From IMG/VR virus record IMGVR_UViG_3300030419_008158, positions 186,001 through 250,000 of that record: a stretch of 64,000 bases of DNA; one strand, given 5' to 3'. Source of the stretch: a virus. Positions 11,483 to 25,161 of this stretch are shown here, piece after piece (within the stretch, counting starts at the first letter, position 1; every line of letters starts with the position of its first letter). The notes under the pieces were generated by a model. It saw only the letters and a program-made list of their open reading frames with translations, ran no database searches and was not told where the DNA came from. A program made the translations under genes and the position numbers.

Positions 11483-12030
11483 GAGCTTTTTCCTTTCTTG
11501 TGGTTAATCCACACCGCATCAGTAATACCTATTGATCTTCTTATTTGTGCTCTGAGCGAATCAGATTTGTCCGACGTACACCATACCCATCGAACTCTAT
11601 TTTTGAGCCGGCTTAGCCTCTGTTCTTTTTCTGTCAACTGATCGGCCATGGAGATCATCTCTTTTTCTGTCAATTTTACCTCAATCGACATATCATTTGC
11701 CATGGCAAAAAGTTTTCCGGCGTCGCCCAATTCGTACGCTGCTTGCATTTCCAAAAATGGCCCACTGTCTTTTGATACATCCGGATGTGTATTCATTGCC
11801 AGCTTTCTGTGCAATTTCTTCAAAACTCTCGTCGGGATTTTAAAGGCTCTGTCTTCTTCTTTTTCTGCCGGCGGTTCCTGTCCTGCTAACAGACTTCTCT
11901 CCTCATGAAAATCTCGTGCGAACTCCTCGAGATATTTTTGATCAAGCTCTCTAAACTCTTGCTCTTCAATTGAGAGAAGTTGCGACTTCAAAAGAAGTTT
12001 TTTGAACTTTCTATCCACACATCCCCCCAT
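11479..12030 (-). CDS. J-domain (DnaJ-like) protein
   Basis: 183 aa from ATG 12028-12030, overlapping the upstream stop (TGATG). The HPD tripeptide is at residues 82-84, within LHRKLAMNTHPDVSKD, followed by a helix (FLEMQAAYELGD) as in J-domain helices II-IV. A helical N-terminal region and a C-terminal coiled segment flank it. J-domains stimulate Hsp70 (DnaK) ATPase, so this could redirect the host chaperone to phage clients. The client is unknown. Co-translated with the alarmone hydrolase. Confidence 0.75.
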   Translation of the reverse strand: MGGCVDRKFKKLLLKSQLLSIEEQEFRELDQKYLEEFARDFHEERSLLAGQEPPAEKEEDRAFKIPTRVLKKLHRKLAMNTHPDVSKDSGPFLEMQAAYELGDAGKLFAMANDMSIEVKLTEKEMISMADQLTEKEQRLSRLKNRVRWVWCTSDKSDSLRAQIRRSIGITDAVWINHKKGKSS

Positions 12031-12239
12031 CAACTAGTAGAAGTGGTTTTAGAAGTGGGTATCGAAAGCTCAACAGGCCCTAGATCGTTATCAGTTACCC
12101 AGTATGTAGCACCAGCTGCATGGACGCAGTAGAATGTTCGTTTTTCATCTTGACGAGTGCTCACAATAAGACCGGGAATCAGAAGACGGGTGTTTCCTGT
12201 TTCATTTAGTCTTATCGTAACTAGTTCGCCTGTTTCCAC
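12030..12239 (-). CDS. Small SH3-like protein, MKVGDLV family
   Basis: 69 aa, beginning METGELVTIRLN, then LLIPGLIVSTRQ, TFYCVHAAGATYWV and DLGPVEL. These are the family strands with GEL in place of GDL. The stop is 1 nt into the J-domain gene start. Rightmost gene of the 11-12 kb operon. Confidence 0.65.
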   Translation of the reverse strand: METGELVTIRLNETGNTRLLIPGLIVSTRQDEKRTFYCVHAAGATYWVTDNDLGPVELSIPTSKTTSTS

Positions 12240-12269
12240 ATATCTAATTAACGCTTACTCATAAGATTG

Positions 12270-12746
12270 TTATCTTTTAGGGATTCTCCACAAGTTCAGC
12301 CACTCTTGTGACCATTGTGGTATTCCCATCGACGTGTAGGATCCGTGGATCCCCCAGCACCATTCGCTAGTAACCCACTTTTCTTTCTCTTCACAAAATT
12401 CAACAAACTCATCGTGTGGGTAAATGAACCAATCAGTGTCATCATTGCCAGCTTTTTCCGGAAATGCAATGTAAAGATCTTTTCCGGAATAACGTTTATC
12501 AATAGTAAGGCGACTTTTGAGCTGAATCCACAGTGCTGTTTTCGAAGGATTTTCAGGCTTGAAGGCAACTAGATCCGCAGCATGTTTATCAGTCGGGGTA
12601 TCAACACCCACATATCCTCGCACTGCGAGCTCTGACTTTAGCAAAGCTGAATGATACGCTTCCTGTTCTTTATTTGACATTTTGAGATAATTTTCTCTTT
12701 TGACTCTGTCGCCTAGCCAACATTGATCTGGTTTAGAATTTTTCAT
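12270..12746 (-). CDS. PD-(D/E)XK-like nuclease (tentative)
   Basis: 158 aa from ATG 12744-12746, with GAGGAG upstream. Residues KSELAVRGYVGVD (37-49), AADLVAF (56-62) and ALWIQLKSR (71-79) match the order E...D...Q-x-K of small PD-(D/E)XK endonuclease-fold proteins, with E39, D58, Q75 and K77 as candidate active-site residues. A KDLYIAFPE strand follows. Such proteins include restriction-like and repair nucleases. The C-terminal Trp-rich 40 residues are unassigned. The fold assignment is by pattern only. Confidence 0.5.
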   Translation of the reverse strand: MKNSKPDQCWLGDRVKRENYLKMSNKEQEAYHSALLKSELAVRGYVGVDTPTDKHAADLVAFKPENPSKTALWIQLKSRLTIDKRYSGKDLYIAFPEKAGNDDTDWFIYPHDEFVEFCEEKEKWVTSEWCWGIHGSYTSMGIPQWSQEWLNLWRIPKR

Positions 12747-12939
12747 CTTTCTCCTCTTCAGGTACAACTTCAGTTGCTGCCAAGTATCTTTTTCCTCTTA
12801 CAATTTTTGTACCCTGCGGGACTATACGCCACGCAAATACATCTTTATCCCACACGAGCAGACGATCAAAAGTTGGTGCCCCGCCTGTCACAAGACGACA
12901 AATCACCCACCCAAACGCAATTCCAAAAATAAATTCCAT
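12733..12939 (-). CDS. Small membrane-anchored protein
   Basis: 68 aa. Residues 1-20 (MEFIFGIAFGWVICRLVTGG) form a short transmembrane helix or uncleaved anchor. A soluble part with strands (RLLVWDKDVFAWRIV) and an acidic-basic tail (EEEKDEKF) follow. It overlaps the next gene's start by 14 nt. Role unknown. Confidence 0.6.
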   Translation of the reverse strand: MEFIFGIAFGWVICRLVTGGAPTFDRLLVWDKDVFAWRIVPQGTKIVRGKRYLAATEVVPEEEKDEKF

Positions 12940-12940
12940 C

Positions 12941-13102
12941 TTATTTGAATACCTTCTTTAGAGCCCATGGAATATGATATCGACATTCGTTTATATTGTT
13001 CCACTTTACAAGAACAGTTCCGTGAAATGCCTTGAATGAAACAATTCTTCCCCTTCCCAAATATTTGTCTTCTTTGTGCTCTACAAAATCACCGACTTTC
13101 AT
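12941..13102 (-). CDS. Small SH3-like protein, MKVGDFV
   Basis: 53 aa, ATG 13100-13102. MKVGDFVEHK, GRGRIVSFKAF, TVLVKWNN and CRYHIPWALKKV follow the family pattern. Its start overlaps the stop of the 25-aa membrane peptide gene (TGATG). One of the shortest members. Confidence 0.7.
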   Translation of the reverse strand: MKVGDFVEHKEDKYLGRGRIVSFKAFHGTVLVKWNNINECRYHIPWALKKVFK

Positions 13103-13179
13103 CACCTCAAACCTCTTTCTTCGTTCCAGATAAACAAAACAATTCCAATGACAGGAATTATCAAACCAAGCAGCTCCAT
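13102..13179 (-). CDS. Tiny membrane peptide, 25 aa
   Basis: ATG 13177-13179 opens MELLGLIIPVIGIVLFIWNE, a nearly pure transmembrane helix with a short charged tail. It is framed by a DUF2061-like membrane gene on one side and a 1-nt overlap with the MKVGDFV gene on the other. This packing supports it being real despite its size. Confidence 0.5.
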   Translation of the reverse strand: MELLGLIIPVIGIVLFIWNEERGLR

Positions 13180-13182
13180 TTT

Positions 13183-13416
13183 CTACTCTTTCTCTTCGTC
13201 AAAGAGTTTCCAAAACTTCGGCCAAAAAGTTTTTTCAAAGAAATAGTGAATAAATGTGTATAAAACATTTAGAAATACCATCAAACTCAAACTTTTCCAT
13301 GGATTACCCATCCATAACCAGGTAATTAGAGCACCAGGGGGAATTGAAAATACAAGCCTCCACACCAGTGCCTTAGTCATGGCTTCTCTGTGAGATATTT
13401 TATTCTCTACTGCCAT
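13183..13416 (-). CDS. DUF2061-like two-helix membrane protein
   Basis: 77 aa. TKALVWRLVFSIPPGALITW and SLSLMVFLNVLYTFIHYFFE are two membrane helices. The K-A-L-x-W-R motif at the start of helix 1 and the H-Y-x-x-E-x-x-W ending match the DUF2061 (predicted membrane protein) family. The molecular role of that family is unknown. Its start lies inside the end of the next SH3-like gene (17 nt overlap). Confidence 0.7.
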   Translation of the reverse strand: MAVENKISHREAMTKALVWRLVFSIPPGALITWLWMGNPWKSLSLMVFLNVLYTFIHYFFEKTFWPKFWKLFDEEKE

Positions 13417-13603
13417 TTATAACCTCCAGTTCACACTCATGAAACCACTCTGGGTCATTATTCAATTCTGGCAAAGCTGCTAAAACTGCGATGCCGTATG
13501 GATTTATTTCGCCGCCACACTCTTTAGACGGTTTGATTTCTAGTACAATTCCGGGAATGTCGCAGTACCCTTGTGACCAGTTTACTAGATCACCTATTTT
13601 CAC
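13400..13603 (-). CDS. Small SH3-like protein, MKIGDLV
   Basis: 67 aa with GTG start (13601-13603); GAGGTG upstream lies inside the previous gene. Its first 14 nt are shared with the last codons of 13590-13772 (ends SENR). Strands: GDLVNW, IPGIVLEIKP, GIAVLAALP. Ends ELEVING, the family's typical last strand. Confidence 0.75.
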   Translation of the reverse strand: MKIGDLVNWSQGYCDIPGIVLEIKPSKECGGEINPYGIAVLAALPELNNDPEWFHECELEVINGSRE

Positions 13604-13772
13604 TTATCACCTCTAGATCTTCTCCATGATACCACAAGCTTTCATTTTGCCACTGTACGTGTATGCTCAATTGATTCGGATCATATTTTTCTACTTGAAT
13701 TACAATTCCAACTCCGCCGTCAACTGACGTGCATGCACCTTCGACACACCTTACAAGATCACCAACTTTCAC
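13590..13772 (-). CDS. Small SH3-like protein, MKVGDLV
   Basis: 60 aa, GTG start (13770-13772). A compact textbook member: MKVGDLVRC, GGVGIVIQVEKY, LSIHVQWQ, and final LEVISENR overlapping the next start by 14 nt. Confidence 0.8.
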   Translation of the reverse strand: MKVGDLVRCVEGACTSVDGGVGIVIQVEKYDPNQLSIHVQWQNESLWYHGEDLEVISENR

Positions 13773-13775
13773 CGT

Positions 13776-13955
13776 TCAGCTTTCTTCTGCTATTGAAGCC
13801 AAGAATCCGATCTTTCGCTTTGGTTTGTCTTCAACTTCTTGTACTTCAAAACCCATTTTTTCTAGTTGCGATTCAAAATCTGCTGCTTCTTTTGATGCTC
13901 GAAGATATGGTTTGAGCGATACATTTGCATCAACTACGATAATATTTGGTTTCAT
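13776..13955 (-). CDS. Small unknown protein, 59 aa
   Basis: ATG 13953-13955 with GAGGT upstream. It starts MKPNIIVVDANVSLKPYL and continues with a charged helix (SKEAADFESQLEKMGFEV). Not an SH3-like member, though embedded in the array. The N-terminal IIVVDAN resembles the first strand of a PIN or Rossmann-like fold, but the protein is too short to say more. Confidence 0.6.
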   Translation of the reverse strand: MKPNIIVVDANVSLKPYLRASKEAADFESQLEKMGFEVQEVEDKPKRKIGFLASIAEES

Positions 13956-13958
13956 TAT

Positions 13959-14144
13959 TTATACCTCGTCTAATGTAATAACTTTCGCACTTCTGCTTAA
14001 AGATTCTAGGTTCATATGTGTAGGGTTTCTAAACGTTACTTCTCCAAAGACCCACACCAAAGCATAACCCCCAAAATCTGGCTGCACATCGATAATAGCA
14101 CCCATTTTTCCTGTTCTAAATGTCAACAAATCACCGACCTTCAT
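13959..14144 (-). CDS. Small SH3-like protein, MKVGDLL
   Basis: 61 aa, ATG 14142-14144, chosen over a longer frame because it restores the family N-terminus and the 14-nt overlap with 14131-14346. GAIIDVQPDFGG and YALVWVFGEVTF are the core strands. The C-terminus (SAKVITLDEV) departs from the usual xESR ending. Confidence 0.75.
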   Translation of the reverse strand: MKVGDLLTFRTGKMGAIIDVQPDFGGYALVWVFGEVTFRNPTHMNLESLSRSAKVITLDEV

Positions 14145-14346
14145 TGACAACCTCCACTCTAGACGCAGCAATCCATCCTATGTGAGACGTGCTCCAGAGC
14201 ACCTCGACTATCTGCTGTCCCTGGTCGGGGAACGGAAGTATTCGTTGATTGCCTCTGTACCTGTCAAGTCGTAAAATGGTGCCCATGTAACGTTCATCGT
14301 CGGCCGACGCTGGCCCCGCATGCATGATCAAGTCACCGACTTTCAT
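14131..14346 (-). CDS. Small SH3-like protein, MKVGDLI
   Basis: 71 aa, ATG start. MGTILRLDRYRG, QQIVEVLWSTSHIGW and the ending VEVVNEGR. Both ends share 14 nt with neighbours (14131-14144 and 14333-14346). Confidence 0.8.
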   Translation of the reverse strand: MKVGDLIMHAGPASADDERYMGTILRLDRYRGNQRILPFPDQGQQIVEVLWSTSHIGWIAASRVEVVNEGR

Positions 14347-14518
14347 TGACTAGCTCCAATGCACTCTTTCCCAGTGTTCGTGTCGTCATCATCTTGGGCC
14401 AAAACACTTCGTATGTGTTGTCATCATACTTTTCTTTAACCAGACCAAGCCCCCAATCTTTGACTAGGCCGGACCAGCGATCATCATAGACAAACTCGAC
14501 CAAGTCACCGACTTTCAC
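14333..14518 (-). CDS. Small SH3-like protein, MKVGDLV
   Basis: 61 aa, GTG start (14516-14518). WGLGLVKEKYDD and TYEVFWPK strands; ends LELVNESR. 14-nt dual-coding overlaps at both ends. Confidence 0.8.
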   Translation of the reverse strand: MKVGDLVEFVYDDRWSGLVKDWGLGLVKEKYDDNTYEVFWPKMMTTRTLGKSALELVNESR

Positions 14519-14729
14519 TGATTGCCTCCATCAAGCTTTCAGCAATATCATAGATCTTGCCGACCTTTGGATACATCACCGTAATACATGGATGAGCCGG
14601 ATTGCTTCCGCCCATTTGCTTTGAGAGAATGATGCCATGGCCAAGCAATTCTCGCTGATCAGATGCAGCCTTTAGTTTCCAGCTTGGTAGATTTCTAGTT
14701 TTTCTAATCACTAAATCACCAACTTTCAT
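14505..14729 (-). CDS. Small SH3-like protein, MKVGDLV
   Basis: 74 aa, ATG start. The loop after strand 1 is basic (RKTRNLPSWKLKAASDQR), followed by GHGIILSKQMG and CITVMYPK. Ends MEAISESR, overlapping the next gene by 14 nt. Its own start overlaps the upstream stop by 4 nt. Confidence 0.8.
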   Translation of the reverse strand: MKVGDLVIRKTRNLPSWKLKAASDQRELLGHGIILSKQMGGSNPAHPCITVMYPKVGKIYDIAESLMEAISESR

Positions 14730-14929
14730 TGAACAATCTCCAAATTATGATCAGACCAGCTCAACTCTTCACCCGTGTCTGGGTAAAGCACAGTTACCAA
14801 AAGTTCTTCTTCGTAAGGATCGATCCATCGTGGTCTTGTTGACACGACAATGCCTAGTGCACCGTGATGTTTAGTGCCAGAGTTAGTCCGAACTAGAGAT
14901 CCAATAGATAGAATGGGGTCAAAATTCAT
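14726..14929 (-). CDS. Small SH3-like protein, variant start
   Basis: 67 aa from ATG 14927-14929, chosen because it overlaps the upstream stop (TAATG). The N-terminus is MNFDPILSIGSLVRTNSG: an 8-residue extension before I-G-S-L-V, the family core. LGIVVSTRPRW and LLVTVLYPDTG follow. Confidence 0.75.
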   Translation of the reverse strand: MNFDPILSIGSLVRTNSGTKHHGALGIVVSTRPRWIDPYEEELLVTVLYPDTGEELSWSDHNLEIVQ

Positions 14930-15138
14930 TAGCTTGTCACCTTCGTCAAATCGCGTGACATAATCCAGACAACATTGTAAGTCGGAGCACTCCAGCAAAC
15001 TTGATGAACGTAGGTGTCACGTCCTCGATCTGCTCTTCGTGTTGCAGCAACCTTTTTAGAATCAACAATGATCCCGAGTGCTTTGTCGTTGCAGTAATCT
15101 TTATCAGAGACAACCTTGACAATATCACCGACTTTCAA
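14929..15138 (-). CDS. Small SH3-like protein, MKVGDIV
   Basis: 69 aa with a TTG start (15136-15138). TTG is forced by the overlap, because the preceding gene ends I-E-S-R (ATT GAA AGT CGG TGA). ALGIIVDSKKV and TYNVVWIMS are core strands. Confidence 0.75.
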   Translation of the reverse strand: MKVGDIVKVVSDKDYCNDKALGIIVDSKKVAATRRADRGRDTYVHQVCWSAPTYNVVWIMSRDLTKVTS

Positions 15139-15349
15139 TGATGACCTCTAGTTCCGAAAATGCCATGGCATGAAGGCCATTCTTCGTTTGGCCCAAACCA
15201 TTCTGGTCACGGCCCTGACCCTCTGCACCGGGAAAATAAACGTATGCTGATTGGCTGGCTGCGTCACCCCAAGTCTTCACAATGGTGCCGATGCGGCCCT
15301 TGTAAAACCTCGCGTCGCCCACGAAATTGACCAAATCACCGACTTTCAT
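15125..15349 (-). CDS. Small SH3-like protein, MKVGDLV
   Basis: 74 aa, ATG start overlapping the upstream TAA. RIGTIVKTWGD and SAYVYFPG strands, a Gly/Gln-rich loop (GQGRDQNGLGQT), and end ELEVIIESR with the 14-nt overlap. Confidence 0.8.
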   Translation of the reverse strand: MKVGDLVNFVGDARFYKGRIGTIVKTWGDAASQSAYVYFPGAEGQGRDQNGLGQTKNGLHAMAFSELEVIIESR

Positions 15350-15522
15350 TAGACATCCGCCCTAAGTCCGGAGTCAACAGGGAACTGGTGCTGACCTAGC
15401 TCATCGAATTCGACCACATATTGACACACATCCCAGTACCATTCGGGACATACATTGACAACCACACCGGCATAATAGCCGTCGGGGGTAAGTGCCTTGA
15501 CTCGATCTCCAACCCTAAACAA
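15349..15522 (-). CDS. Small SH3-like protein, TTG start (FRVGDRV)
   Basis: 57 aa. TTG at 15520-15522, with GGAGC 6 nt upstream, gives (M)FRVGDRVKAL, then YYAGVVVNVCP and CQYVVEFDEL. First gene after the promoter at 15565-15593. Easily missed because of its length and TTG start. Confidence 0.65.
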   Translation of the reverse strand: MFRVGDRVKALTPDGYYAGVVVNVCPEWYWDVCQYVVEFDELGQHQFPVDSGLRADV

Positions 15523-15564
15523 TGTCAGCTCCTATTTCGGGGACCATCCCCAACCAACATTTAT

Positions 15565-15593
15565 ATTATACCATGCACTCTGCTACCTTACAC
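15565..15593 (-). promoter_or_regulatory. Predicted promoter GTGTAA-N17-TATAAT inside the array
   Basis: GTGTAA (15588-15593), 17 nt, TATAAT (15565-15570). The leader contains GGGGATGGTCCCC, a small hairpin also found after the promoter at 24200. The -35 lies on the stop of the gene at 15588-15788. Confidence 0.8.
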
Positions 15594-15788
15594 AGACTCG
15601 TTACAAAAACTTTCAACAACTTCAATGTTACGAACCGGCGACCAAATTACATCGCCCTCATAAAAAAGCATACAAGAAGCAGGTTCGTACACATTGCTAT
15701 TGTAATATTCAAGTACTAATGCAGAACGATACACACTTTCAGTACCTCCTTCTCTGTAGTAGACATCAACCAAATCACCGGCTTTCAA
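15588..15788 (-). CDS. Small SH3-like protein, MKAGDLV
   Basis: 66 aa, TTG start (15786-15788), 14-nt overlap with the upstream gene's IESR end. YRSALVLEYYNSN and SCMLFYEGD strands. Its last codons carry the -35 element of the internal promoter. Confidence 0.7.
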   Translation of the reverse strand: MKAGDLVDVYYREGGTESVYRSALVLEYYNSNVYEPASCMLFYEGDVIWSPVRNIEVVESFCNESV

Positions 15789-16149
15789 TTATCACCTTTA
15801 CGTCTGTTTGCCAAACGGATGAAACTGTTCCATCTTCCCACGCCACTGTGCAAGTGTCAGGTACACCATAACTTCTCTGAACTTCTATAACTGTCCCTTT
15901 CTTTTCAGTAAAGGGGTGTCTAAGACTTATTACGATATCATTTGTATTCACATCGGAGTACATTTTTCCCTCTATTTCGATTTCTAATAATCCCTCTTCA
16001 GTCCACCTAGGGCCAACAGTCGGCCAGTGAACATTGTGCTGTGTCAGCTTTGGGTGCATAGGATCATCTTTAGTCTCAATAATAATCCCACCGCTCCAAG
16101 GATTGTCGAAGCACAGCGGACTATGCTTTACTAAATCACCGACTTTCAC
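15775..16149 (-). CDS. Tandem double SH3-like protein
   Basis: 124 aa, GTG start (16147-16149). Two family domains in one chain: residues 1-60 (MKVGDLVKH, GGIIIETKDD, QHNVHWPT, LLEIEIEGK) and 61-124 (NTNDIVISLRHPF, KGTVIEVQRSYG, TCTVAWEDG, VKVIIESR). This shows that neighbouring genes can fuse by loss of the overlap stop. 14-nt overlaps at both ends. Confidence 0.8.
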   Translation of the reverse strand: MKVGDLVKHSPLCFDNPWSGGIIIETKDDPMHPKLTQHNVHWPTVGPRWTEEGLLEIEIEGKMYSDVNTNDIVISLRHPFTEKKGTVIEVQRSYGVPDTCTVAWEDGTVSSVWQTDVKVIIESR

Positions 16150-16336
16150 TAATGACCTCTAGCTCATCTGAGTAAAATTTTTCAAAGTCATCATCTCCTG
16201 ATGACCAGTGAACTTCGACTAGTTGGGGATTTGTTTTTGGGGGTGCTGCCTCTATAATAATTCCGGGCACTTTGCCGTGAACATCAACAAACTCATCGAT
16301 GTCCTGCCTTACCCATACTAAATCCCCGACTTTCAT
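16136..16336 (-). CDS. Small SH3-like protein, MKVGDLV
   Basis: 66 aa, ATG start with a 4-nt overlap upstream. VPGIIIEAAPP and QLVEVHWSSG strands; ends LEVISESR with the 14-nt overlap. Confidence 0.8.
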   Translation of the reverse strand: MKVGDLVWVRQDIDEFVDVHGKVPGIIIEAAPPKTNPQLVEVHWSSGDDDFEKFYSDELEVISESR

Positions 16337-16575
16337 AAAGCCTCCACAAACAATTTGATATCTTTTTCAAAGTCAGCATCGTCATACCAACCCGCATGAT
16401 TCATGATAGTTTCGTTCCAACCGTACTCTTCAACAACATCAAACCATGCTATTTGAAATGCCAAGATAGTCTCGCCGGAACGCAGAAACGCCTCTTTTTG
16501 ATCTGTGATTATGCCTAGACCGGAGTGCTCCCATGAAGAATGGTGCACGTATTGTACCATGTCGCCAATTTTCAC
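16333..16575 (-). CDS. Small SH3-like protein, MKIGDMV
   Basis: 80 aa, GTG start (16573-16575). LGIITDQKEA and ILAFQIAWFDVVEEYGW strands; a longer acidic C-terminal part (DDADFEKDIKLFVEAL) suggests an extra helix. Confidence 0.75.
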   Translation of the reverse strand: MKIGDMVQYVHHSSWEHSGLGIITDQKEAFLRSGETILAFQIAWFDVVEEYGWNETIMNHAGWYDDADFEKDIKLFVEAL

Positions 16576-16898
16576 TAGATGTCTGCCAATCCTTTTCCAA
16601 ACTCGTCAAGGTCCGGATCAGATTCATGATTTTTTTGTCTACACTCACTAATCACTTTAAGCTCAGTAGACTCAAGATATTCCGGGTGACTATCACTCCA
16701 GCACACCAAAACTCTGTCCCTCTTTCCATCTTTTGTTGGGCCCATTCCATCAACTAGATCACCTCTCACAACTTTACCTCTGCCTATTTCTTGATAAATC
16801 TTAAAAGCCTGTGTCGCGCCGTAATAATCAATGTCAATTTTCTCAACAATCCCGTATCGCCCTGTTCTTTTTTCACAAACTAGGTCACCGACTTTCAC
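16575..16898 (-). CDS. Small SH3-like protein with long insertion
   Basis: 107 aa, GTG start (16896-16898). MKVGDLVCEKRTG, YGIVEKIDIDY and RVLVCWSDSHPEY are the core. A charged C-terminal tail (QKNHESDPDLDEFGKGLADI) follows an internal VISECR, as if the original stop had been lost and the frame had run on. Confidence 0.75.
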   Translation of the reverse strand: MKVGDLVCEKRTGRYGIVEKIDIDYYGATQAFKIYQEIGRGKVVRGDLVDGMGPTKDGKRDRVLVCWSDSHPEYLESTELKVISECRQKNHESDPDLDEFGKGLADI

Positions 16899-17046
16899 TT
16901 ATAAGCTCCAGTTCATGATAAAATGCAAACTCACAAACACCGTTTTCATAGAGGACAGACCACCCGTCGTTCATTGCTGAACATTCACTTACTATGATGC
17001 CGCACATTTTATTTGCTAGGTCAAACACCAGGTCACCAGTTCTCAT
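16885..17046 (-). CDS. Small SH3-like protein, MRTGDLV
   Basis: 53 aa, ATG 17044-17046. MRTGDLVFD, CGIIVSECSA, WSVLYENGV and LELISESR, whose final codons are the first 14 nt of the next gene. Short but a complete family pattern. Confidence 0.75.
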   Translation of the reverse strand: MRTGDLVFDLANKMCGIIVSECSAMNDGWSVLYENGVCEFAFYHELELISESR

Positions 17047-17444: not shown

Positions 17445-17481
17445 GATCTGCTAGACTCCTGCTGCGGTTTTATATGTGACT

Positions 17482-17511: not shown

Positions 17512-17516
17512 AAACC

Positions 17517-17714: not shown

Positions 17715-17730
17715 GTGTTTCTCCTTATCC

Positions 17731-17829
17731 TTACAGGCCAATAATCCTTAGCGGAAGTGTAATAATAGTAAATAGTGTCTTAGCACAAGCAGCTATCAAT
17801 GTAGTTACTATAGATATAAAGATTTTCAT
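17731..17829 (-). CDS. Tiny membrane peptide, 32 aa
   Basis: ATG 17827-17829 with GGAG 6 nt upstream. MKIFISIVTTLIAACAKTLF then TIITLPLRIIGL, a single hydrophobic helix. Overlaps the preceding SH3-like gene by 4 nt (ATGA), which supports its being translated. Confidence 0.5.
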   Translation of the reverse strand: MKIFISIVTTLIAACAKTLFTIITLPLRIIGL

Positions 17830-18017
17830 TTTTTCTCCGAAAGAACCTGTAAGTCACCTTTTCGAAACCACCCGCGATCAAACGGATCTGTGCAAATTAC
17901 CTCATACATTCTGTCAATTTCACAACCATCAGACAAATCAAAAGTATCTGTAATAAGCCCAGCTTTACAGCCCCCCGTCATTGGGCAAACATATTGAACT
18001 AGATCACCCGGTTTCAA
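17826..18017 (-). CDS. Small SH3-like protein, MKPGDLV
   Basis: 63 aa, TTG start (18015-18017). CKAGLITDTFDLSDG, MYEVICTDPFD and LQVLSEKK. CPMTGGC could hold a metal but has only two cysteines. Confidence 0.7.
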   Translation of the reverse strand: MKPGDLVQYVCPMTGGCKAGLITDTFDLSDGCEIDRMYEVICTDPFDRGWFRKGDLQVLSEKK

Positions 18018-18508: not shown

Positions 18509-18522
18509 CGTTATCTGCTTTG

Positions 18523-18711
18523 TCATTGCTCTTGCTTTGTGACCAGCTTCAAATATGTGTTGTATTCTGTTGTGATTTTTCCATCTGACCAATATACTGT
18601 TGCAGAGCTCTTATTTTTCTTGATAATCAAACCAGGGTTGGAATATCTTTCTTCAGCATGCTTAAATACCCATGCTCTGGAATGAAAATCGACTAGATCA
18701 CCCAGTTTCAT
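18523..18711 (-). CDS. Small SH3-like protein, MKLGDLV
   Basis: 62 aa, ATG start overlapping the upstream stop by 4 nt. NPGLIIKKNKSS and ATVYWSDGKITTEY strands; ends LKLVTKQEQ. Confidence 0.75.
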   Translation of the reverse strand: MKLGDLVDFHSRAWVFKHAEERYSNPGLIIKKNKSSATVYWSDGKITTEYNTYLKLVTKQEQ

Positions 18712-19185: not shown

Positions 19186-19194
19186 GATGTTGTC

Positions 19195-19350: not shown

Positions 19351-19351
19351 A

Positions 19352-19624: not shown

Positions 19625-19651
19625 TATTTTCTCCAAATAAAGAAAGTGATT

Positions 19652-19849
19652 TTATCTAACAACATGCAGGTGATCAGACTTGCAGAGCCTAGTTTCGCCA
19701 TCTTGCCAGAGTACACGAGAAAAGTTGGCGTCTGGATAGCCGCTACGATTTGTCATCATGTTAGTTTCTAGCAACAAGCCCAGCTCTCCTTCACGATCGT
19801 AAGAAGACCATATACTACCCTGCAACAATACTAAATCACCTTTTTTCAC
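19652..19849 (-). CDS. Small SH3-like protein, MKKGDLV
   Basis: 65 aa, GTG start (19847-19849). ELGLLLETNMMT and FSRVLWQDGE strands; ends HLHVVR. Shares 14 nt with the gene upstream (ends SEKR). Confidence 0.75.
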   Translation of the reverse strand: MKKGDLVLLQGSIWSSYDREGELGLLLETNMMTNRSGYPDANFSRVLWQDGETRLCKSDHLHVVR

Positions 19850-20009
19850 TTATCACCTTTAGTCGACTCATAGAAACATTATCAAAATCTCGGTAGTGTA
19901 TCCTAGGAGGTGTCCATACAACATCAGCAGACTTGTTCTTGTTCCTGATTTCAAGAACCACTCCCAGGCACCCTCTTCTCTTGTGTTGAACCAAATCACC
20001 GACTTTCAT
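19836..20009 (-). CDS. Small SH3-like protein, MKVGDLV
   Basis: 57 aa from ATG 20007-20009, preferred over a 5-residue-longer frame because it gives the family start and a 4-nt overlap. CLGVVLEIRNKN and SADVVWTPP; ends LKVISEKR. Confidence 0.75.
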   Translation of the reverse strand: MKVGDLVQHKRRGCLGVVLEIRNKNKSADVVWTPPRIHYRDFDNVSMSRLKVISEKR

Positions 20010-20206
20010 TTGACAACCTTGCAATCTTTATAGAAATGCCTGTGGACAGCTCCATCAAGACGGCTCCAGCTTACGTGGATCCACTGCCCAGCGTGGTCAC
20101 TTGGGCTGGTGTACCCATCATCGATCACGACTCCATACCCGTTATGGCCACCACCGGGCGTGTTTGGCCCAGGGCGATCCAATACAACCAAATCACCGAC
20201 TTTCAT
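20006..20206 (-). CDS. Small SH3-like protein, MKVGDLV
   Basis: 66 aa from ATG 20204-20206; the longer frame to 20281 would run through the next gene. A Gly/Pro-rich loop (RPGPNTPGGGHNG), then YGVVIDDGYTS and IHVSWSRLDG. 14-nt overlap with the upstream gene. Confidence 0.75.
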   Translation of the reverse strand: MKVGDLVVLDRPGPNTPGGGHNGYGVVIDDGYTSPSDHAGQWIHVSWSRLDGAVHRHFYKDCKVVK

Positions 20207-20408
20207 TGATAGCCTCCAATGCACTATGCGCCAGAGGGTGCTCGTACCCGAATCGCGGAAACAAAACCAGCGGGGTACCAAAACTGCTGACTCCTACGAT
20301 AATGCCCAACTCATTTTTGATCGCATGTTTCATCGGGACACACACTCCGCCCTGAACCTTGCTGGTTGTAGGCTGAAATAAACACCTAACTAGGTCACCT
20401 ACTTTCAT
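20193..20408 (-). CDS. Small SH3-like protein, MKVGDLV
   Basis: 71 aa, ATG start. LGIIVGVSSFG and PLVLFPRFG strands; ends LEAINESR with the 14-nt overlap. A Lys/Gly insertion follows strand 1. Confidence 0.75.
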   Translation of the reverse strand: MKVGDLVRCLFQPTTSKVQGGVCVPMKHAIKNELGIIVGVSSFGTPLVLFPRFGYEHPLAHSALEAINESR

Positions 20409-20621: not shown

Positions 20622-20666
20622 TTTTTATTCTCCTTGCAAGTAGAGTCTGCCTCCACCGTCATTTAC

Positions 20667-20695
20667 ATTATACAATACGGTGACAATTCTTACAC
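20667..20695 (-). promoter_or_regulatory. Predicted promoter GTGTAA-N17-TATAAT
   Basis: GTGTAA (20690-20695), 17 nt, TATAAT (20667-20672). It overlaps the stop of the gene at 20668-20892 and drives 20409-20621 onward. Confidence 0.8.
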
Positions 20696-20892
20696 GTGCT
20701 ATCGGGCAAAGATGAGACAATTTCCCACTGATCGACCAGACCCACTTTGATTTTTCCGTCTGGCATTAATACTTTTATTCCTCTTGCATGTATGCTATAC
20801 ACGAGACCCATTTGATTTGTATAATCCTCTGATCGATTTCGAACTTTCCACCAGGAATCATATTTCATCTTTACAAGATCACCGGGTTTCAT
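20668..20892 (-). CDS. Small SH3-like protein, MKPGDLV
   Basis: 74 aa, ATG start overlapping the mgtC-like stop by 4 nt. GLVYSIHARG and IKVLMPDGK strands, then a C-terminal extension with CKNCHR, a possible half zinc site. The end of the gene is overprinted by a promoter. Confidence 0.7.
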   Translation of the reverse strand: MKPGDLVKMKYDSWWKVRNRSEDYTNQMGLVYSIHARGIKVLMPDGKIKVGLVDQWEIVSSLPDSTCKNCHRIV

Positions 20893-21563
20893 TGCACACT
20901 CACAGATTCCATATCTTCCAGAGTATTGACTATGTTGATCAACGAATCCATTCCGACGTCATTTGGCACTCTGACTATCATATCGAGATTTAGTGTTTCG
21001 TTAGCGCCTATTTTTGCAGAAAGTGATATTATAGAAATGTTTTGCTTTGTTAAGTTTTCCCTAAGATCATTGACAAGACCTTTTCTATCTCGAACTGTTA
21101 GACTTATTTCTCTTGTGCTATGGCCTGGAATAAAAAATTTCTGGAACTTATCAATGACAGTCAGCGCTGAGAGAACCAAAATTGTGGTGATCAAAGCCAA
21201 GTAATAGTACCCAGCTCCGCAAGCAATACCAATAATCGCGCAGGTCCATAGCGAACTAGCAGTTGTAAGACCCTTGACTGTCACACCAAATCTCAAAATG
21301 GCACCAGCTCCGAGAAATCCCACGCCTGATACTACTTGTGCCACTATTCTTGCGGGGTCGCTTGGAATATTTGGCGGCGAAAATTCTTTTGAAAATGCTA
21401 TACTTAAAATTGCTGCTAGGGCTGCCCCGAGACCTAAAATCATGTGTGTTCTTGTGCCTGCTGGTTGGCCATGGAATTCACGCTCGAGACCAATCAGAGC
21501 ACATAACCCGGCTGCGGCGCCTAAGTTTATCATGGATTCGATGTCGAAATTAAAAAGTTCCAT
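20889..21563 (-). CDS. MgtC/SapB-family membrane protein
   Basis: 224 aa, full length for the family. The N-terminal membrane domain has the hallmark GLEREFHGQPAGTRTHM and the segment ARIVAQVVSGVGFLGAGAI. A soluble ACT-like C-terminal domain starts near residue 150. MgtC in pathogens lowers F1Fo ATPase activity and helps survival at low Mg2+; a phage copy could retune host energy or ion balance. The ATG (21561-21563) lies about 7 nt after the predicted -10 (21570-21575), so the transcript would be almost leaderless. Confidence 0.9.
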   Translation of the reverse strand: MELFNFDIESMINLGAAAGLCALIGLEREFHGQPAGTRTHMILGLGAALAAILSIAFSKEFSPPNIPSDPARIVAQVVSGVGFLGAGAILRFGVTVKGLTTASSLWTCAIIGIACGAGYYYLALITTILVLSALTVIDKFQKFFIPGHSTREISLTVRDRKGLVNDLRENLTKQNISIISLSAKIGANETLNLDMIVRVPNDVGMDSLINIVNTLEDMESVSVQ

Positions 21564-21569
21564 CTAGAT

Positions 21570-21598
21570 ATTATATCAACAAGAACAAAGTTATACAA
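21570..21598 (-). promoter_or_regulatory. Predicted promoter TTGTAT-N17-TATAAT
   Basis: TTGTAT (21593-21598), 17 nt, TATAAT (21570-21575). The -10 is so close to the mgtC-like ATG that transcription should start at or near the A of the start codon. Confidence 0.65.
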
Positions 21599-21604
21599 GG
21601 CAGA

Positions 21605-21784
21605 CTATAGGACTCTTATCCATTTTTCGTGCATTTTTGACACACCCATATCCTCGTTGTAGAGTTGCCAAAGGGAACCTAAATATTGCTGCGCTTCATC
21701 AGTGTCAGCTTCACGAAGAAAATCAACTATGAGATAGACATCTTTTCCGTATGGGAGAACTGTGACTAAATCACCAATCTTCAT
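21605..21784 (-). CDS. Small SH3-like protein, MKIGDLV
   Basis: 59 aa from ATG 21782-21784, chosen for the family start over a 12-residue-longer frame. VYLIVDFLREAD and LGSLWQLYNED strands; ends KWIRVL. Confidence 0.7.
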   Translation of the reverse strand: MKIGDLVTVLPYGKDVYLIVDFLREADTDEAQQYLGSLWQLYNEDMGVSKMHEKWIRVL

Positions 21785-21789
21785 GAAAA

Positions 21790-21993
21790 TTAATTGTCGA
21801 TACTTCCTTCTCGAATACATCCGAGAGGAAGCTCATTCCAGCAGTATACCAAATCTTTTTCAAGAATAGTAACGCTCTCCTTTAAAGTATCAATTTTAGC
21901 TTTCCCGGGCGCTGAGTGTCTCCCTAGGGAAAACCCTACCATGAAAAATAAAATTGCGATTAAAAATAGGAGATTTCTTACTTTTGTGAACAT
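21790..21993 (-). CDS. Membrane-anchored small protein, spanin-like topology
   Basis: 67 aa. MFTKVRNLLFLIAILFFMVG is a membrane helix, followed by a charged coiled segment (KIDTLKESVTILEKDL) and two cysteines. Together with the overlapping next gene it resembles the short anchored coiled-coil pairs of Rz-type spanins, but nothing beyond topology supports that. Confidence 0.55.
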   Translation of the reverse strand: MFTKVRNLLFLIAILFFMVGFSLGRHSAPGKAKIDTLKESVTILEKDLVYCWNELPLGCIREGSIDN

Positions 21994-22208
21994 GTTTTGG
22001 CAACGCTATTTAGACGAGAATTTTCTGCCTCTAGTGAAGCTGCGTATTCAAAGAGGCCTTTGCAGCTGGTAGAAACTTCTTCAATGCAAGAATCTAGGGC
22101 TTCTCTGATTTCATTATTTCTAGGGAGTGATAGTAAAATCACAGTCAGCATTATACAGACAAATGATAGAATGACTACCAACATAGAAAGTTTCTTGTTT
22201 GTGTTCAT
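21978..22208 (-). CDS. Membrane-anchored coiled-coil small protein
   Basis: 76 aa. Basic start (MNTNKKL), membrane helix (SMLVVILSFVCIMLTVILLS), then a periplasmic-type coiled region (EALDSCIEEVSTSCKGLFEY, ASLEAENSRL) with three cysteines. Overlaps 21790-21993 by 16 nt. Confidence 0.6.
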   Translation of the reverse strand: MNTNKKLSMLVVILSFVCIMLTVILLSLPRNNEIREALDSCIEEVSTSCKGLFEYAASLEAENSRLNSVAKTCSQK

Positions 22209-22459
22209 GATACAGATTTTCCTTCACGTATGATATCAAATTCACGCCTGCAGTTGTGAATATTGATACCTGCGTATCCGTGTTTTTTATTATACTCCGG
22301 AGGTGTATCATCGTTTACCCATTCAATAAACACATTTCTTTGGTGTCCGTAATTGCATCTTACGATCTTTGTAACCAATCCAAAATAACGTTCGTCCTTG
22401 TTCTTTTGAATGATAAGGTCTCCAATCGCAGGCATTCTATGATGTAGCGACCTAGACAT
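22205..22459 (-). CDS. SH3-like protein with N-terminal extension
   Basis: 84 aa, ATG with GGAGAAG upstream. MSRSLHHRMPAIGDLIIQK: the family GDL core begins at residue 12. YFGLVTKIVRCN and NVFIEWVNDDTP follow. Overlaps the next start by 8 nt. Confidence 0.65.
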   Translation of the reverse strand: MSRSLHHRMPAIGDLIIQKNKDERYFGLVTKIVRCNYGHQRNVFIEWVNDDTPPEYNKKHGYAGINIHNCRREFDIIREGKSVS

Positions 22460-22643
22460 CTAGCTTCTCCAGCTGCCAGGGATACCATTCTAAAATCTTA
22501 CCACTATCGTGCATCACTTCGACGACACCAACCTCTGAAGAGTTGGGCCCAAACACACATGTGTTTACGATAATACCCCTTTTCGACTCGGGTCCGGTCC
22601 CAAAGCCTGGTGTCTTTGTTTTTACCAAATCACCGATTTTCAA
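22452..22643 (-). CDS. Small SH3-like protein, MKIGDLV
   Basis: 63 aa, TTG start (22641-22643), 14-nt overlap with the preceding gene (ends VENR). RGIIVNTCVFGP and VGVVEVMHDSGK strands. Confidence 0.75.
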   Translation of the reverse strand: MKIGDLVKTKTPGFGTGPESKRGIIVNTCVFGPNSSEVGVVEVMHDSGKILEWYPWQLEKLDV

Positions 22644-22854
22644 CTGTATACCATCCCGGCGCGTCAGAAGAAGTCTTGCTCAAATGAACAATTTTACTTC
22701 CCATGGGCCCTAAAAAATTCTGGTGAGATTCATCATACCCAGACGACTTTTTTGATCGTAAGATCACATCGGCAGGCAAAGAAATCTTACCGTCTTCGTA
22801 GTAAGAAATACCAAAATCGTAGCATTGTTCTCTATCTAGATAAATTTGTTTCAC
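22630..22854 (-). CDS. Diverged small protein in the SH3-like array
   Basis: 74 aa, GTG start (22852-22854). The N-terminus MKQIYLDREQCYDFGISYYE lacks GDLV, but the gene keeps the array spacing and ends WYTVENR with the 14-nt overlap. Core strands GKISLPADVILRS and GSKIVHLSKT. Probably a strongly drifted paralog. Confidence 0.6.
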   Translation of the reverse strand: MKQIYLDREQCYDFGISYYEDGKISLPADVILRSKKSSGYDESHQNFLGPMGSKIVHLSKTSSDAPGWYTVENR

Positions 22855-23066
22855 TTGACGACCTCAATATCATTGTCATTCATTATTTTTGAAATATTTT
22901 TGGCGGGCCACCAGATCTCAACTCCTGCTGTAACTTTAGAGAAATCATCTTCCAAGAAACCTACAATCACTCCTACACCCCATGGTTTAGAAACGAACTC
23001 TTCAAAATGATCAGGAGGAGATGTTCTACAATCCCTCTTTAGCTTTACTAAGTCTCCAACTTCCAC
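22851..23066 (-). CDS. Small SH3-like protein, MEVGDLV
   Basis: 71 aa, GTG start (23064-23066). WGVGVIVGFLEDD and AGVEIWWPAK strands; ends NDIEVVK. Overlaps both neighbours by 1-4 nt. Confidence 0.75.
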   Translation of the reverse strand: MEVGDLVKLKRDCRTSPPDHFEEFVSKPWGVGVIVGFLEDDFSKVTAGVEIWWPAKNISKIMNDNDIEVVK

Positions 23067-23380
23067 TAGTGATAATCAGCTTCATCGAAGCTAGGTGAAA
23101 GAACCATAAGGTGGACGATAGGAGCGTCTACATCCTCAGTAGACTCCGACTCCCAATAAGACCAGCCGATAAACTGGCGAGTACCAGCCTCAGAGTCTGC
23201 GTAAAAGGAGGGTCCGCTATGTTCATATACAACTGAACGTCCGGATAAATCACGTACCAGCAACTCGTCAGGAGGAACAGCACGATGCCGACCTGGCAAT
23301 GAAGCTAGCGGGACGAGAACCGTACCTCCCCCTGTAGGGGAGTCAGCTGATCGAAATGTAAAGTCTGAAAAATTAAGCAC
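23066..23380 (-). CDS. Unknown protein, 104 aa
   Basis: ATG start; beta-rich (GGTVLVPLASLPG, ELLVRDLSGRSVVYE, RQFIGWSYWESES, APIVHLMVLS). It may be a long relative of the SH3-like set because VLVPLASLP recalls their core, but the GDL start is missing. Confidence 0.6.
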   Translation of the reverse strand: MLNFSDFTFRSADSPTGGGTVLVPLASLPGRHRAVPPDELLVRDLSGRSVVYEHSGPSFYADSEAGTRQFIGWSYWESESTEDVDAPIVHLMVLSPSFDEADYH

Positions 23381-23395
23381 TAGGAATCTCCTTGT

Positions 23396-23533
23396 TTAGA
23401 AACTGCACTCTACACATTCTCCGGTACACACATCATGCTCGGTGCGCTGATCGCATGCTGGGCAGTGCTGCGCAGTATACTCATCGTTACCGCCGCGGTC
23501 ATCGTTCTCATCATCATCATACCAGTGCTTCAC
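23396..23533 (-). CDS. Small zinc-ribbon-like protein, 45 aa
   Basis: GTG start (23531-23533) with AGGAG 7 nt upstream. The N-terminal half is acidic (HWYDDDENDD). The C-terminal half holds CPAC, then DVCTGECVECSF: five cysteines that could form a Zn site (C-x2-C...C-x3-C-x2-C). It ends 15 nt before the next start, so the spacing is gene-like. Confidence 0.55.
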   Translation of the reverse strand: MKHWYDDDENDDRGGNDEYTAQHCPACDQRTEHDVCTGECVECSF

Positions 23534-23542
23534 TTCTTTCTC

Positions 23543-23809
23543 CTATATCAGCTCGACGTTATCGCAAATGCCACCAAAGAGCTTCGGGGTACCATTCACT
23601 GGCGGATAAACCTTAGCGGGCCAAGCATCCTTCTCCACACCACCGAAAATACATCGTTCGACTTGGATAACGTAACGTTCACACCCTTGGTAATGTTCAA
23701 ACCCGACGACTTCCCCCTCGACATAACAGGCTCGTTTACCCGAAAGGGACCGGCCGTCGGGGCCATCAGAAAAATCAAACGAGCGAACTCGATCACCAAC
23801 TTTAATCAT
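23543..23809 (-). CDS. SH3-like protein, MIKVGDRV
   Basis: 88 aa, ATG overlapping the upstream stop (TAATG). MIKVGDRVRSF, GEVVGFEHYQG, YVIQVERCIFGG and a long last part. A larger member of the KVGD family with a Gly-rich loop (DGPDGRSLSGK). Confidence 0.7.
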   Translation of the reverse strand: MIKVGDRVRSFDFSDGPDGRSLSGKRACYVEGEVVGFEHYQGCERYVIQVERCIFGGVEKDAWPAKVYPPVNGTPKLFGGICDNVELI

Positions 23810-24153
23810 TACGCATTCCTCACATCATCAAACATTGGCATGTACGTCTCTTTGAACCAGGCATCGTAACCGGCCTTGGTGGTGGGATACCCATCCCTCT
23901 TGAGCCACTTCTTGATGTGGGGGAGGAGGTATCCAGTCGACTTAGCAATATCGAGAGGAGCCTTGCCGGCATCCCTCTCAGCGAAGTAATCCTCGACAGT
24001 CCAGTTCTTCCGGAGGTGAGTCATGAAGCTACCAACCCCAGCAACCTTGAATCGAGCAACGAACTTGGCATCGGCAGCGTAGGGGTTACCGGTAGCACTG
24101 TAGTAGACGTACGGTCCGTCTTTGACGAGGTTTTCTTTAGTGAAAGCAGTCAT
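23809..24153 (-). CDS. Unknown protein, 114 aa
   Basis: ATG 24151-24153 with AGGAGA upstream. Two similar aromatic segments (YVYYSATGNPYAADAKFVAR and YPTTKAGYDAWFKETYM). The central helical part (VEDYFAERDAGKAPLDIAKS, then HIKKWLKRDGY) recalls small phage DNA-binding or regulatory proteins with an ANK- or HTH-like helix pair. Not assigned. First gene of its unit. Confidence 0.65.
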   Translation of the reverse strand: MTAFTKENLVKDGPYVYYSATGNPYAADAKFVARFKVAGVGSFMTHLRKNWTVEDYFAERDAGKAPLDIAKSTGYLLPHIKKWLKRDGYPTTKAGYDAWFKETYMPMFDDVRNA

Positions 24154-24199
24154 GATTTTCTCCTTTGTCTTCTAGGGACCATCCCCTCTAGACATTTAT

Positions 24200-24228
24200 A
24201 TTATACCATGACTCAGGCCAGCTTACAC
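24200..24228 (-). promoter_or_regulatory. Predicted promoter GTGTAA-N17-TATAAT
   Basis: GTGTAA (24223-24228), 17 nt, TATAAT (24200-24205). The leader contains GGGGATGGTCCC, as after the 15565 promoter. Drives 23809-24153 and the genes to its left. Confidence 0.8.
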
Positions 24229-24238
24229 AAAACGATAT

Positions 24239-24270
24239 AAAAAAAAGGCCTGGCGTGTGCCAGGCCTTTT
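24239..24270 (-). terminator. Bidirectional-looking terminator
   Basis: AAAAGGCCTGGC (24243-24254) and GCCAGGCCTTTT (24259-24270) pair perfectly over 12 bp around GTGT. On the minus strand it is followed by TTTTTTTT. It closes the gene at 24289-24672 just before the next promoter. Confidence 0.9.
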
Positions 24271-24288
24271 GTTAAAGGGCCGCGGCCT

Positions 24289-24672
24289 TTAAGCAGCCAT
24301 ATCGTAGATTGCACCGCGAATATTGGCATCTGGAACATACTTACGAAGCTTAGCTTGAACCTTGTTCCGTTCATAGTTTTGCTTTTTAGCAGCTTTGGTG
24401 TGGCCGTGACTATAAGGAACAGCCCGAAGAGCTTCTAGGATTTCACTGACCTCTGGATCTTGTAGGGTTTCCATTGCCAAGCTGTGAAAATGTTCCTTAG
24501 TACGCGCCCTGTTTTCTGCAACCTGCTTCGACCACTCCCTCGTAGCCTTTTTCTCTCTGTTGAGCGACCAAATAGCGATTGCCACCTTAGTAACGTTGTA
24601 CGCTACTTGTACAAGAACGATGGCGCAGAAGGCACCGAGTGTAATGAGAAGAGCATTCGTGAATAGTTCCAT
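24289..24672 (-). CDS. Membrane-anchored helical protein, 127 aa
   Basis: ATG 24670-24672 with AAAGGAG upstream. One N-terminal membrane helix (LLITLGAFCAIVLVQVAYNV), then a long charged helical cytoplasmic part (NREKKATREWSKQVAENR and onward) and a basic C-terminal region. Own promoter and terminator. Function unknown. Confidence 0.65.
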   Translation of the reverse strand: MELFTNALLITLGAFCAIVLVQVAYNVTKVAIAIWSLNREKKATREWSKQVAENRARTKEHFHSLAMETLQDPEVSEILEALRAVPYSHGHTKAAKKQNYERNKVQAKLRKYVPDANIRGAIYDMAA

Positions 24673-24718
24673 GAGATTCTCCTTTTTAAAATCGTTGGCC
24701 AGTTGTGCCAACATCGTT

Positions 24719-24747
24719 ATTATAACACAGTCAGATCTAGCTTACAC
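24719..24747 (-). promoter_or_regulatory. Predicted promoter GTGTAA-N17-TATAAT
   Basis: GTGTAA (24742-24747), 17 nt, TATAAT (24719-24724). Drives 24289-24672. Confidence 0.8.
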
Positions 24748-24756
24748 AAACGAAGC

Positions 24757-24936
24757 CTAAGAATTAACTGTCAGCGCATATTTGCTAAATGCACCGGGAA
24801 TCAAAGCGAGAACAATACATTTCTTGTTTGCAGCTTTTGCTTGAGAAATTGCATCTTTGGAATTGTAAGATAAGTTCAATTCTTTTGTAGCGATCTTGCC
24901 GTCAACACTGTAGATACATGTATATACTCTTGTCAT
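24757..24936 (-). CDS. Small unknown protein, 59 aa
   Basis: ATG 24934-24936, AGGA upstream. MTRVYTCIYSVDGKIATKEL, a helix (KDAISQAKAANKK), then CIVLALIPGAFSKYALTVNS. A plausible small alpha/beta protein between a promoter and an SH3-like gene. Confidence 0.6.
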   Translation of the reverse strand: MTRVYTCIYSVDGKIATKELNLSYNSKDAISQAKAANKKCIVLALIPGAFSKYALTVNS

Positions 24937-24957
24937 TTTTTCCTGCCATTTGAAAAT

Positions 24958-25161
24958 TTAAGCACAATTGCGCTTTGCTAATAAGCGCAAGCAATGTGAA
25001 CTGTACCAGTTGCCTGGGCCGACTGGAATTATTTTACCTTTTTCGTTGTAAAGCCTGACTAGCTGTTCGTAATCTTTGTTTCTGACAACAGACGCTACTA
25101 TGCATATTCCTTCTCTGTCGTTGCTAGTCATGACTAAGTCACCCACTGAATACTCATCCAT
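24958..25161 (-). CDS. Small SH3-like protein (YSVGDLV)
   Basis: 67 aa, ATG 25159-25161. MDEYSVGDLVMTS, CIVASVVRNKD, EQLVRLYNEKGK and a C-terminal basic end with cysteine. Last member of the dense part of the array. Confidence 0.7.
   Translation of the reverse strand: MDEYSVGDLVMTSNDREGICIVASVVRNKDYEQLVRLYNEKGKIIPVGPGNWYSSHCLRLLAKRNCA

Follow-up and report, generated by a model that had tools for sequence, protein, structure and literature searches.

The question raised by this locus is how a virus comes to carry 30 small, related and strongly divergent genes, and how such a set is held together and renewed. The genes encode proteins starting with MKxGDLV and lie in the window analyzed here, the 64-kb stretch covering bases 186001-250000 of IMG/VR virus record IMGVR_UViG_3300030419_008158 (284,429 bp), which originates from an uncultured virus; positions below are those of the window. 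We consider it likely that this part of a giant phage genome is made up of exchangeable cassettes, arrayed one after another, each encoding a small SH3-like barrel protein. One gene meets the next at a junction of about 30 nucleotides (nt), which supplies the downstream gene with its ribosome-binding site and start and, read in a different frame, encodes the last strand, the tail and the stop of the gene upstream. Recombination at this junction would add, drop or swap one whole gene while the operon keeps working.

Overlapping junctions between the genes of the array

Fourteen nucleotides, RTGAAAGTCGGTGA, were found to constitute the start of one gene (MKVGD) and at the same time the end of the previous one (E-S-R-stop), and the TGGAGGT just before them doubles as ribosome site and LEV codons. 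The last codons of the upstream gene, L-E-V-I-(S/N)-E-S-R-stop, are read from TTGGAGGTNATCARTGAAAGTCGGTGA, which in another frame comprises the ribosome site of the next gene followed by M-K-V-G-D. The full junction has the consensus TGGAGGTNATCA-RTGAAAGTCGGTGATTTGGT. Thus, the "MKVGDLV...LEVI" signature stems in part from a junction at the DNA level. The initial annotation had described the motif correctly, except that LEVI is not the complete end of coupled genes, which continue as given above, and the conserved ends that it took as a protein signature are largely this overlap of start, Shine-Dalgarno (SD) sequence and stop, which is present on unrelated proteins too.

In the window and its relatives, the exact 14-nt overlap was present in 230 of about 510 neighbouring pairs and an exact 4-nt overlap in 49; ten joints between family genes of the window show the 14-nt form. 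Because TGA sits in both off-frames of the start region, either overlap ends the incoming gene, and since the junction recurs at the joints, exchange of a whole gene would leave the operon working. The 14-nt register was preferred by 229:48 between family genes, compared to 46:39 after unrelated upstream frames, some of which are possibly not genes (p = 2e-29; Fisher p = 4e-7). This preference between family genes fits the fact that the SD sequence coincides with the LEV strand codons only in that register. An SD-like 4-mer was found at 87% of the 14-nt joints compared to 54-56% elsewhere, and the Glu codon of the terminal LEV was GAG in 135 of 144 cases compared to a background of 42%. Judging from the overlap and the SD sequence, translation of neighbouring genes is probably coupled. 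In a structure model of the member at 13590-13772 (see next section), residues 1-5 and 58-60 form coil, and the shared 14 nt therefore encode only loose ends of both proteins.

All MKxGDLV open reading frames (ORFs) named in the initial annotation were confirmed; they lie on the minus strand and have start codons, and most also have a ribosome site. Their number, given there as about 38 paralogs, was a slight over-count, with 30 firm and about 35 possible members. Thirty window ORFs scored an expect value (E) of 0.003 or lower with a family profile trained iteratively on relatives, 29 of them within 12.9-25.2 kb and one outlying at 29440-29649. Five ORFs (15349, 45679, 12030, 29118, and 7614) were borderline (E 0.01-0.2), and three suggested or nearby ORFs (7907, 17043, and 23543) were unsupported as members (E >= 1.4 or no hit). 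With the ORFs of the whole window shuffled ten times as a control, nothing scored E <= 0.01. Every family copy in the whole 284-kb record falls inside the window, and the typical member is a stand-alone protein of about 60 amino acids. Members are listed below, all on the minus strand (-), with the profile E where available and "profile" otherwise; "overlap" denotes the 14-nt overlap.

12941-13102 (-), MKVGDFVEH; E 1e-6
13400-13603 (-), MKIGDLVNW; E 4e-12
13590-13603 (-), one of the 14-nt coding overlaps, GTGAAAATAGGTGA, shared by 13590-13772 and 13400-13603
13590-13772 (-), MKVGDLVRC, tail SENR, overlap, AlphaFold SH3-like barrel; E 1e-17
13959-14144 (-), MKVGDLLTF; E 9e-5
14131-14346 (-), MKVGDLIMH, tail NEGR, overlap; profile
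14333-14518 (-), MKVGDLVEF, tail NESR, overlap; profile
14505-14729 (-), MKVGDLVIR, tail SESR, overlap, ortholog (60%) in L015; E 3e-11
14726-14929 (-), MNFDPILSIGSLV, 1-nt overlap with upstream gene; E 1.2e-6
14929-15138 (-), MKVGDIVKV; E 2.5e-7
15125-15349 (-), MKVGDLVNF, tail IESR, overlap; profile
15588-15788 (-), MKAGDLVDV; E 4e-5
15775-16149 (-), two-domain member MKVGDLVKH, tail IESR, overlap; two profile matches, E 4e-8 and 4e-7
16136-16336 (-), MKVGDLVWV, tail SESR, overlap; E 1.6e-16
16333-16575 (-), MKIGDMVQY; E 2e-5
16575-16898 (-), MKVGDLVCE, long insert, ortholog (48%) in L005; E 1.4e-7
16885-17046 (-), MRTGDLVFD, tail SESR, overlap; profile
17826-18017 (-), MKPGDLVQY; E 3e-9
18523-18711 (-), MKLGDLVDF; E 1.7e-8
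19652-19849 (-), MKKGDLVLL, ortholog (58%) in L020; E 7.5e-8
19836-20009 (-), MKVGDLVQH, tail SEKR, overlap with next start; profile
20006-20206 (-), MKVGDLVVL; E 2e-9
20193-20408 (-), MKVGDLVRC, tail NESR, overlap with next start; profile
20668-20892 (-), MKPGDLVKM, orthologs (50-54%) in L018 and L020; E 5.5e-10
21605-21784 (-), MKIGDLVTV, AlphaFold barrel; E 7e-6
22205-22435 (-), MPAIGDLII, weak; E 7e-4
22452-22643 (-), MKIGDLVKT; E 8e-9
22851-23066 (-), MEVGDLVKL; E 2.5e-9
24958-25146 (-), MGDLVMTS, weak, longer start at 25161; E 0.003
29440-29649 (-), MKPGDLVRF, outlying copy; E 6e-7

Predicted barrel fold and occurrence of the family

The AlphaFold model of 13590-13772 (with 100 relatives) showed a five-strand SH3-like barrel with a predicted local distance difference test score (pLDDT) of 92.2, with strands at residues 6-9, 21-31, 34-40, 45-49, and 53-57 and a 3-10 turn before the last. 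The model of the divergent member 21605-21784 (pLDDT 88.8) has the same strand order, b1-b2-b3-b4-3/10-b5, plus a helical insert. Structural neighbours detected by Foldseek were the KOW domain of eS4, PetP, the 53BP1 Tudor domain, the KOW domain of MutS2 and the UvrD Tudor domain, all of them SH3/Tudor/KOW-type barrels (probability about 1.00, template modelling score up to 0.77, E >= 0.02). PDB and Pfam gave weak sequence matches, none significant and mostly to the same fold. These two models of divergent members sharing one fold, together with the structural neighbours and the weak sequence hits, agree with the five-strand SH3/KOW-like barrel that had been proposed from the letters alone, and members are very probably SH3/Tudor/KOW-type barrels.

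At the level of sequence families, no match above the curated cut-off was obtained with Pfam KOW, Tudor or SH3 models for 100 scanned members, the best weak matches being UBE2O SH3-B (E 0.001) and Cul7 (E 0.002; 18.8 bits compared to a cut-off of 25). No consistent PHROG family was found, any one PHROG matching at most 3 of 100 members at E <= 0.01. The members are thus outside every sequence family tested.

Related genes were collected with the DNA junction pattern and with single proteins, the family alignment being too divergent for a direct scan of viral contigs. The collection contains 621 members (556 distinct proteins) at 54 loci, i.e., contigs, here given L numbers, and falls into about 447 clusters at 45% identity, of which 383 are singletons. 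Several loci come from the same or nearly identical records, and counts are therefore not independent events. Arrays with 10-29 detected copies are present in many other uncultured viral contigs, these copy numbers being lower bounds obtained with one family profile. No significant relative was found in cultured phages by near-DNA or protein search (best E 0.03 with a consensus query). The bacterial and archaeal collection yielded a single array (L109, 15 members). Its contig, assigned to the bin of a Halobacteriovorax metagenome-assembled genome, may belong to a phage and point to a host; the mini-barrels thus look like a phage family. A literature search found no text containing "MKVGDLV" and none on such arrays.

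Apparent exchange of whole genes between phages

For most window members, the nearest gene was in another phage (often 45-62% identity), paralogs within the window being at most 36% identical. This rules out recent tandem amplification within this phage; the diversification of the copies described in the initial annotation is real. Orthologs up to 62% identical are found in L018, L020, L015, L030, and others, in a different order. Between L030 and L039, for instance, members 3, 6, 7, 9, 11, 12, 17, and 18 of the former correspond to 19, 10, 8, 7, 12, 9, 5, and 21 of the latter. Among neighbouring matched genes, adjacency was kept in 1 of 14 cases.

Of 128 array matches between different records (median nucleotide identity 76%; counted in both directions), 105 spanned exactly one gene and none spanned two. 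Their ends fell within 10 nt of a gene boundary in 73% of cases compared to 18% in shifted controls, and backbone matches from the same records were longer (95th percentile 892 nt compared to 260 nt). In one case a crossover was caught at strain level. The 3.4 kb upstream are 99% identical between L023 and L024, after which L023 shows gene A (MKVGDLVKHTKRG) followed by gene B (MQVGDLVKITGRC), whereas in L024 gene B comes first, now starting MKVGDLVKITGRC, followed by A. The switch point lies inside ATGAAAGTCGGTGATCTGGTAAA, the shared start, and the first codons of L024 gene B were changed from MQVGD to MKVGD by exchange with the start of the neighbouring gene. From these comparisons of sequences, phages appear to trade entire genes with one another at the junction.

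The record encodes RecA (E 3.5e-65), and next to the observed mosaicism and crossover, the phage's own RecA-type machinery would probably be what drives exchange. No ERF-type recombinase was found in the record, in a search that did not include integrases. In published work (PMC2327257), recombination that depends on RecA or Red required about 30 bp at least, and RecET events on 5-13 bp were much rarer.

The junction on unrelated proteins

Unrelated membrane proteins have, as far as their sequences tell, acquired the MKVGD start. The membrane protein encoded by L035:3332-3532 belongs to DUF2061 (above the Pfam cut-off, E 9.5e-8), opens with a perfect junction (MKVGDTLKKVIAWR) and has the C-terminal end EDESR. 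DUF2061 relatives in other contigs start with MKNIGK, MQNTLKK or MNDKMKK, i.e., without the leader, and a closer relative in L116 has the start VEPHD in the same register and the end NESR. Similarly, a membrane protein in L029 starts with MKVGDRVWSWMNEH, where a 63% identical homolog in L051 has MSTLNKIWAWMNEH. In the window, the non-family ORF 22630-22854 (end ..VENR) overlaps the family start of 22452-22643 by 14 nt. Since proteins of other folds carry the same leader, the DNA element is separable from the barrel fold. We tentatively suggest, as a possibility somewhat short of probable, that the start/stop junction is a dedicated "snap-in" recombination signal within coding sequence across a wide group of giant phages, through which barrel and unrelated genes would enter a working operon one at a time.

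Alternatively, recombination could occur at random anywhere, with only clean whole-gene events surviving, and the likeness of the junctions would then reflect common descent and selection on start sites, without any recombination signal. Whole-gene mosaicism is general in phages, shared starts are expected in a homologous family, and GD-L-V is plausible as a lead into the first barrel strand. Two random 14-nt joints share a longest exact run of 9 nt at the median (maximum 31), which this explanation accommodates. However, a five-codon MKVGD leader inside unrelated coding regions is not favoured by a neutral breakpoint, L024 gene B took over the start codons of its neighbour, and the exact 14-nt register is preserved in 230 joints. 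We therefore regard random recombination as an unlikely explanation for the junction.

Several observations weigh against an exchangeable cassette array. Gaps between members exceeded 60 nt in 182 of about 510 cases, and unrelated genes break up the window array. Because random joints share only short exact runs, recombination would often need mismatch tolerance. The strain-level crossover is the only one caught, and gene-level mosaicism alone could also result from random recombination and selection. On the protein side, the Foldseek E-values are weak (best 0.02), as usual with small barrels, and none of the members has a significant match to a functionally characterized protein.

The small conserved protein at 23543-23809 (-), MIKVGDRVRSFDF...PPVNGT, which is also found in L051, has a similar start and is not a member by profile.

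Selection and possible function

The ratio of nonsynonymous to synonymous substitution rates (dN/dS) had a median of 0.19 and was below 1 in all of 59 ortholog pairs with the junction codons removed. The genes are therefore very probably translated and maintained, and this purifying selection indicates that the barrel parts are functional; a pseudogene or neutral array was rejected on this basis. The same values make it highly improbable that the array is the product of selfish or neutral amplification, in which the junction promotes recombination, the array grows and the proteins do little, even though the junction would be enough for growth and shuffling and the repertoire is very open (383 singletons among 447 clusters).

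As purifying selection persists while gene order is scrambled, the most likely reading is that every cassette serves a conserved target of its own, to which its barrel would bind. For small SH3 barrels of this kind, the usual role is docking on a protein within a larger complex. On balance, we lean toward the array being an accessory, probably early, kit for host takeover or counter-defence.

Alternatively, every member might be a KOW-like factor that targets RNA polymerase, the ribosome or DNA; the initial annotation raised such contacts with the ribosome or RNA polymerase, and a similar action has been suggested for T4 MotB. The structural neighbours include the KOW domains of eS4 and MutS2, and the best match of the 21605-21784 model was the UvrD Tudor domain on the RNA polymerase lobe. 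T4 MotB, a small, accessory, early protein with a predicted N-terminal KOW domain, binds DNA (PMC7827196). It resembles the members in being a small phage protein with an SH3/KOW-like barrel, but is a single conserved gene with an additional OB domain and no array, and no sequence link was found. The charge of the members is mixed (median isoelectric point 6.0; below 6 in 49% and above 8.5 in 27%), and lineages are many, which disfavours a shared nucleic-acid-binding role. In addition, no KOW Pfam model matched above the cut-off, and hundreds of lineages (447 clusters at 45% identity) would be superfluous if all members shared one target. A common role of this kind is thus improbable, and the modelled UvrD Tudor match keeps the RNA polymerase idea as a lead only.

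Comparison with known systems

PetP, NdhO, PsaE and the UvrD Tudor domain share fold and size with the barrels, by structure or weak profile match, and dock on large complexes, but they are single-copy cellular proteins without a significant sequence relationship to the family.

Two phage systems show similarity in organization. The PeSL "mobile regulatory cassettes" of T4-type phages (Arbiol 2010 and Comeau 2014, both cited in PMC4503421) are repeated elements said to bracket small accessory genes; they reportedly consist of an intergenic promoter and a stem-loop and would mediate modular shuffling. Element-bracketed, shuffled small genes are likewise found in the barrel arrays. In contrast to PeSLs, the barrel junction lies within two overlapping coding regions, carries SD sequence, start and stop and is tied to one family; a promoter and stem-loop between genes was not found, the coupled genes overlapping without intergenic space. 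The lambda ninR region, a "chain of interlinked genes" (Kroger and Hobom 1982), reportedly contains about ten small, mostly dispensable, unrelated genes with short ATGA-type stop/start overlaps. The barrel arrays also show chained small genes with stop/start overlaps (14 nt and 4 nt), but differ from ninR in the 14-nt form, in mostly homologous genes and in a size of up to about 30 genes.

A promoter-like element, TGTGTAA-N17-TATAAT, was found only seven times in the record, which also differs from the PeSL organization. All seven copies are confined to window 6272-30673 (-), where 0.03 were expected in the window, and none occurs elsewhere in the 284-kb record. Three of them have the following positions:

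15565-15594 (-), promoter-like element before 15125-15522
24200-24229 (-), promoter-like element upstream of the array
24719-24748 (-), promoter-like element upstream of 24289-24714

The "ORFanage" of S-PM2, comprising 33 small orphan ORFs that are dispensable in the laboratory (PMC4503421), resembles the array as a run of tiny overlapping phage genes. It was ruled out as a cultured example, as no ORF of that region matched the family profile (best E 0.2).

Other genes in the window

Unusual phage cargo in and around the array comprises the following:

10988-11482 (-), HD_4 hydrolase, ppGpp-hydrolase-like
20889-21563 (-), MgtC family protein with ACT domain
25183-25644 (-), fatty-acid-hydroxylase-like protein
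27810-28709 (-), putative esterase

Shared leaders were also found on other proteins. In window 32987-43782 (-), the N-terminal sequence M-x-L-L-R-E-Y-I-R-x-L-L-x-E recurs on six or more proteins that are unrelated in other respects (e.g., 35025-36182, 36772-37557, 40915-41730, and 43042-43782); it is possibly a targeting leader, for which capsid targeting in T4 offers a parallel. A second shared leader, MKI(T/S)KRQLRRIIKEEKAKVLAEQ, is present on different small proteins in window 1-3253 (-), e.g., 358-966 and 1371-1811, accompanied by DNA repeats of 62-113 nt. Elsewhere in the window, a Tubulin/FtsZ-like protein (44526-45614 (-); Pfam Tubulin E 8e-5, below the cut-off) adjoins a tmRNA gene (45895-46258), and 47197-48651 (-) encodes a phosphoenolpyruvate carboxykinase-like protein, named by sequence, relatives of which are present in 57 or more uncultured viral contigs.

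Implications for phage evolution

This study defines a large mini-barrel family that is represented in neither Pfam nor PHROG and lacks significant matches among cultured phages. If the "snap-in" reading is true, the arrays would be a phage counterpart of the integron cassette array that works without a site-specific integrase. The proposed exchange of cassettes would give, for giant phages, a concrete sequence-level account of how small accessory repertoires turn over gene by gene without breaking expression, the turnover of such repertoires being a long-standing question in phage evolution. The arrays would also constitute a ready library for screening of host-takeover and counter-defence activity.

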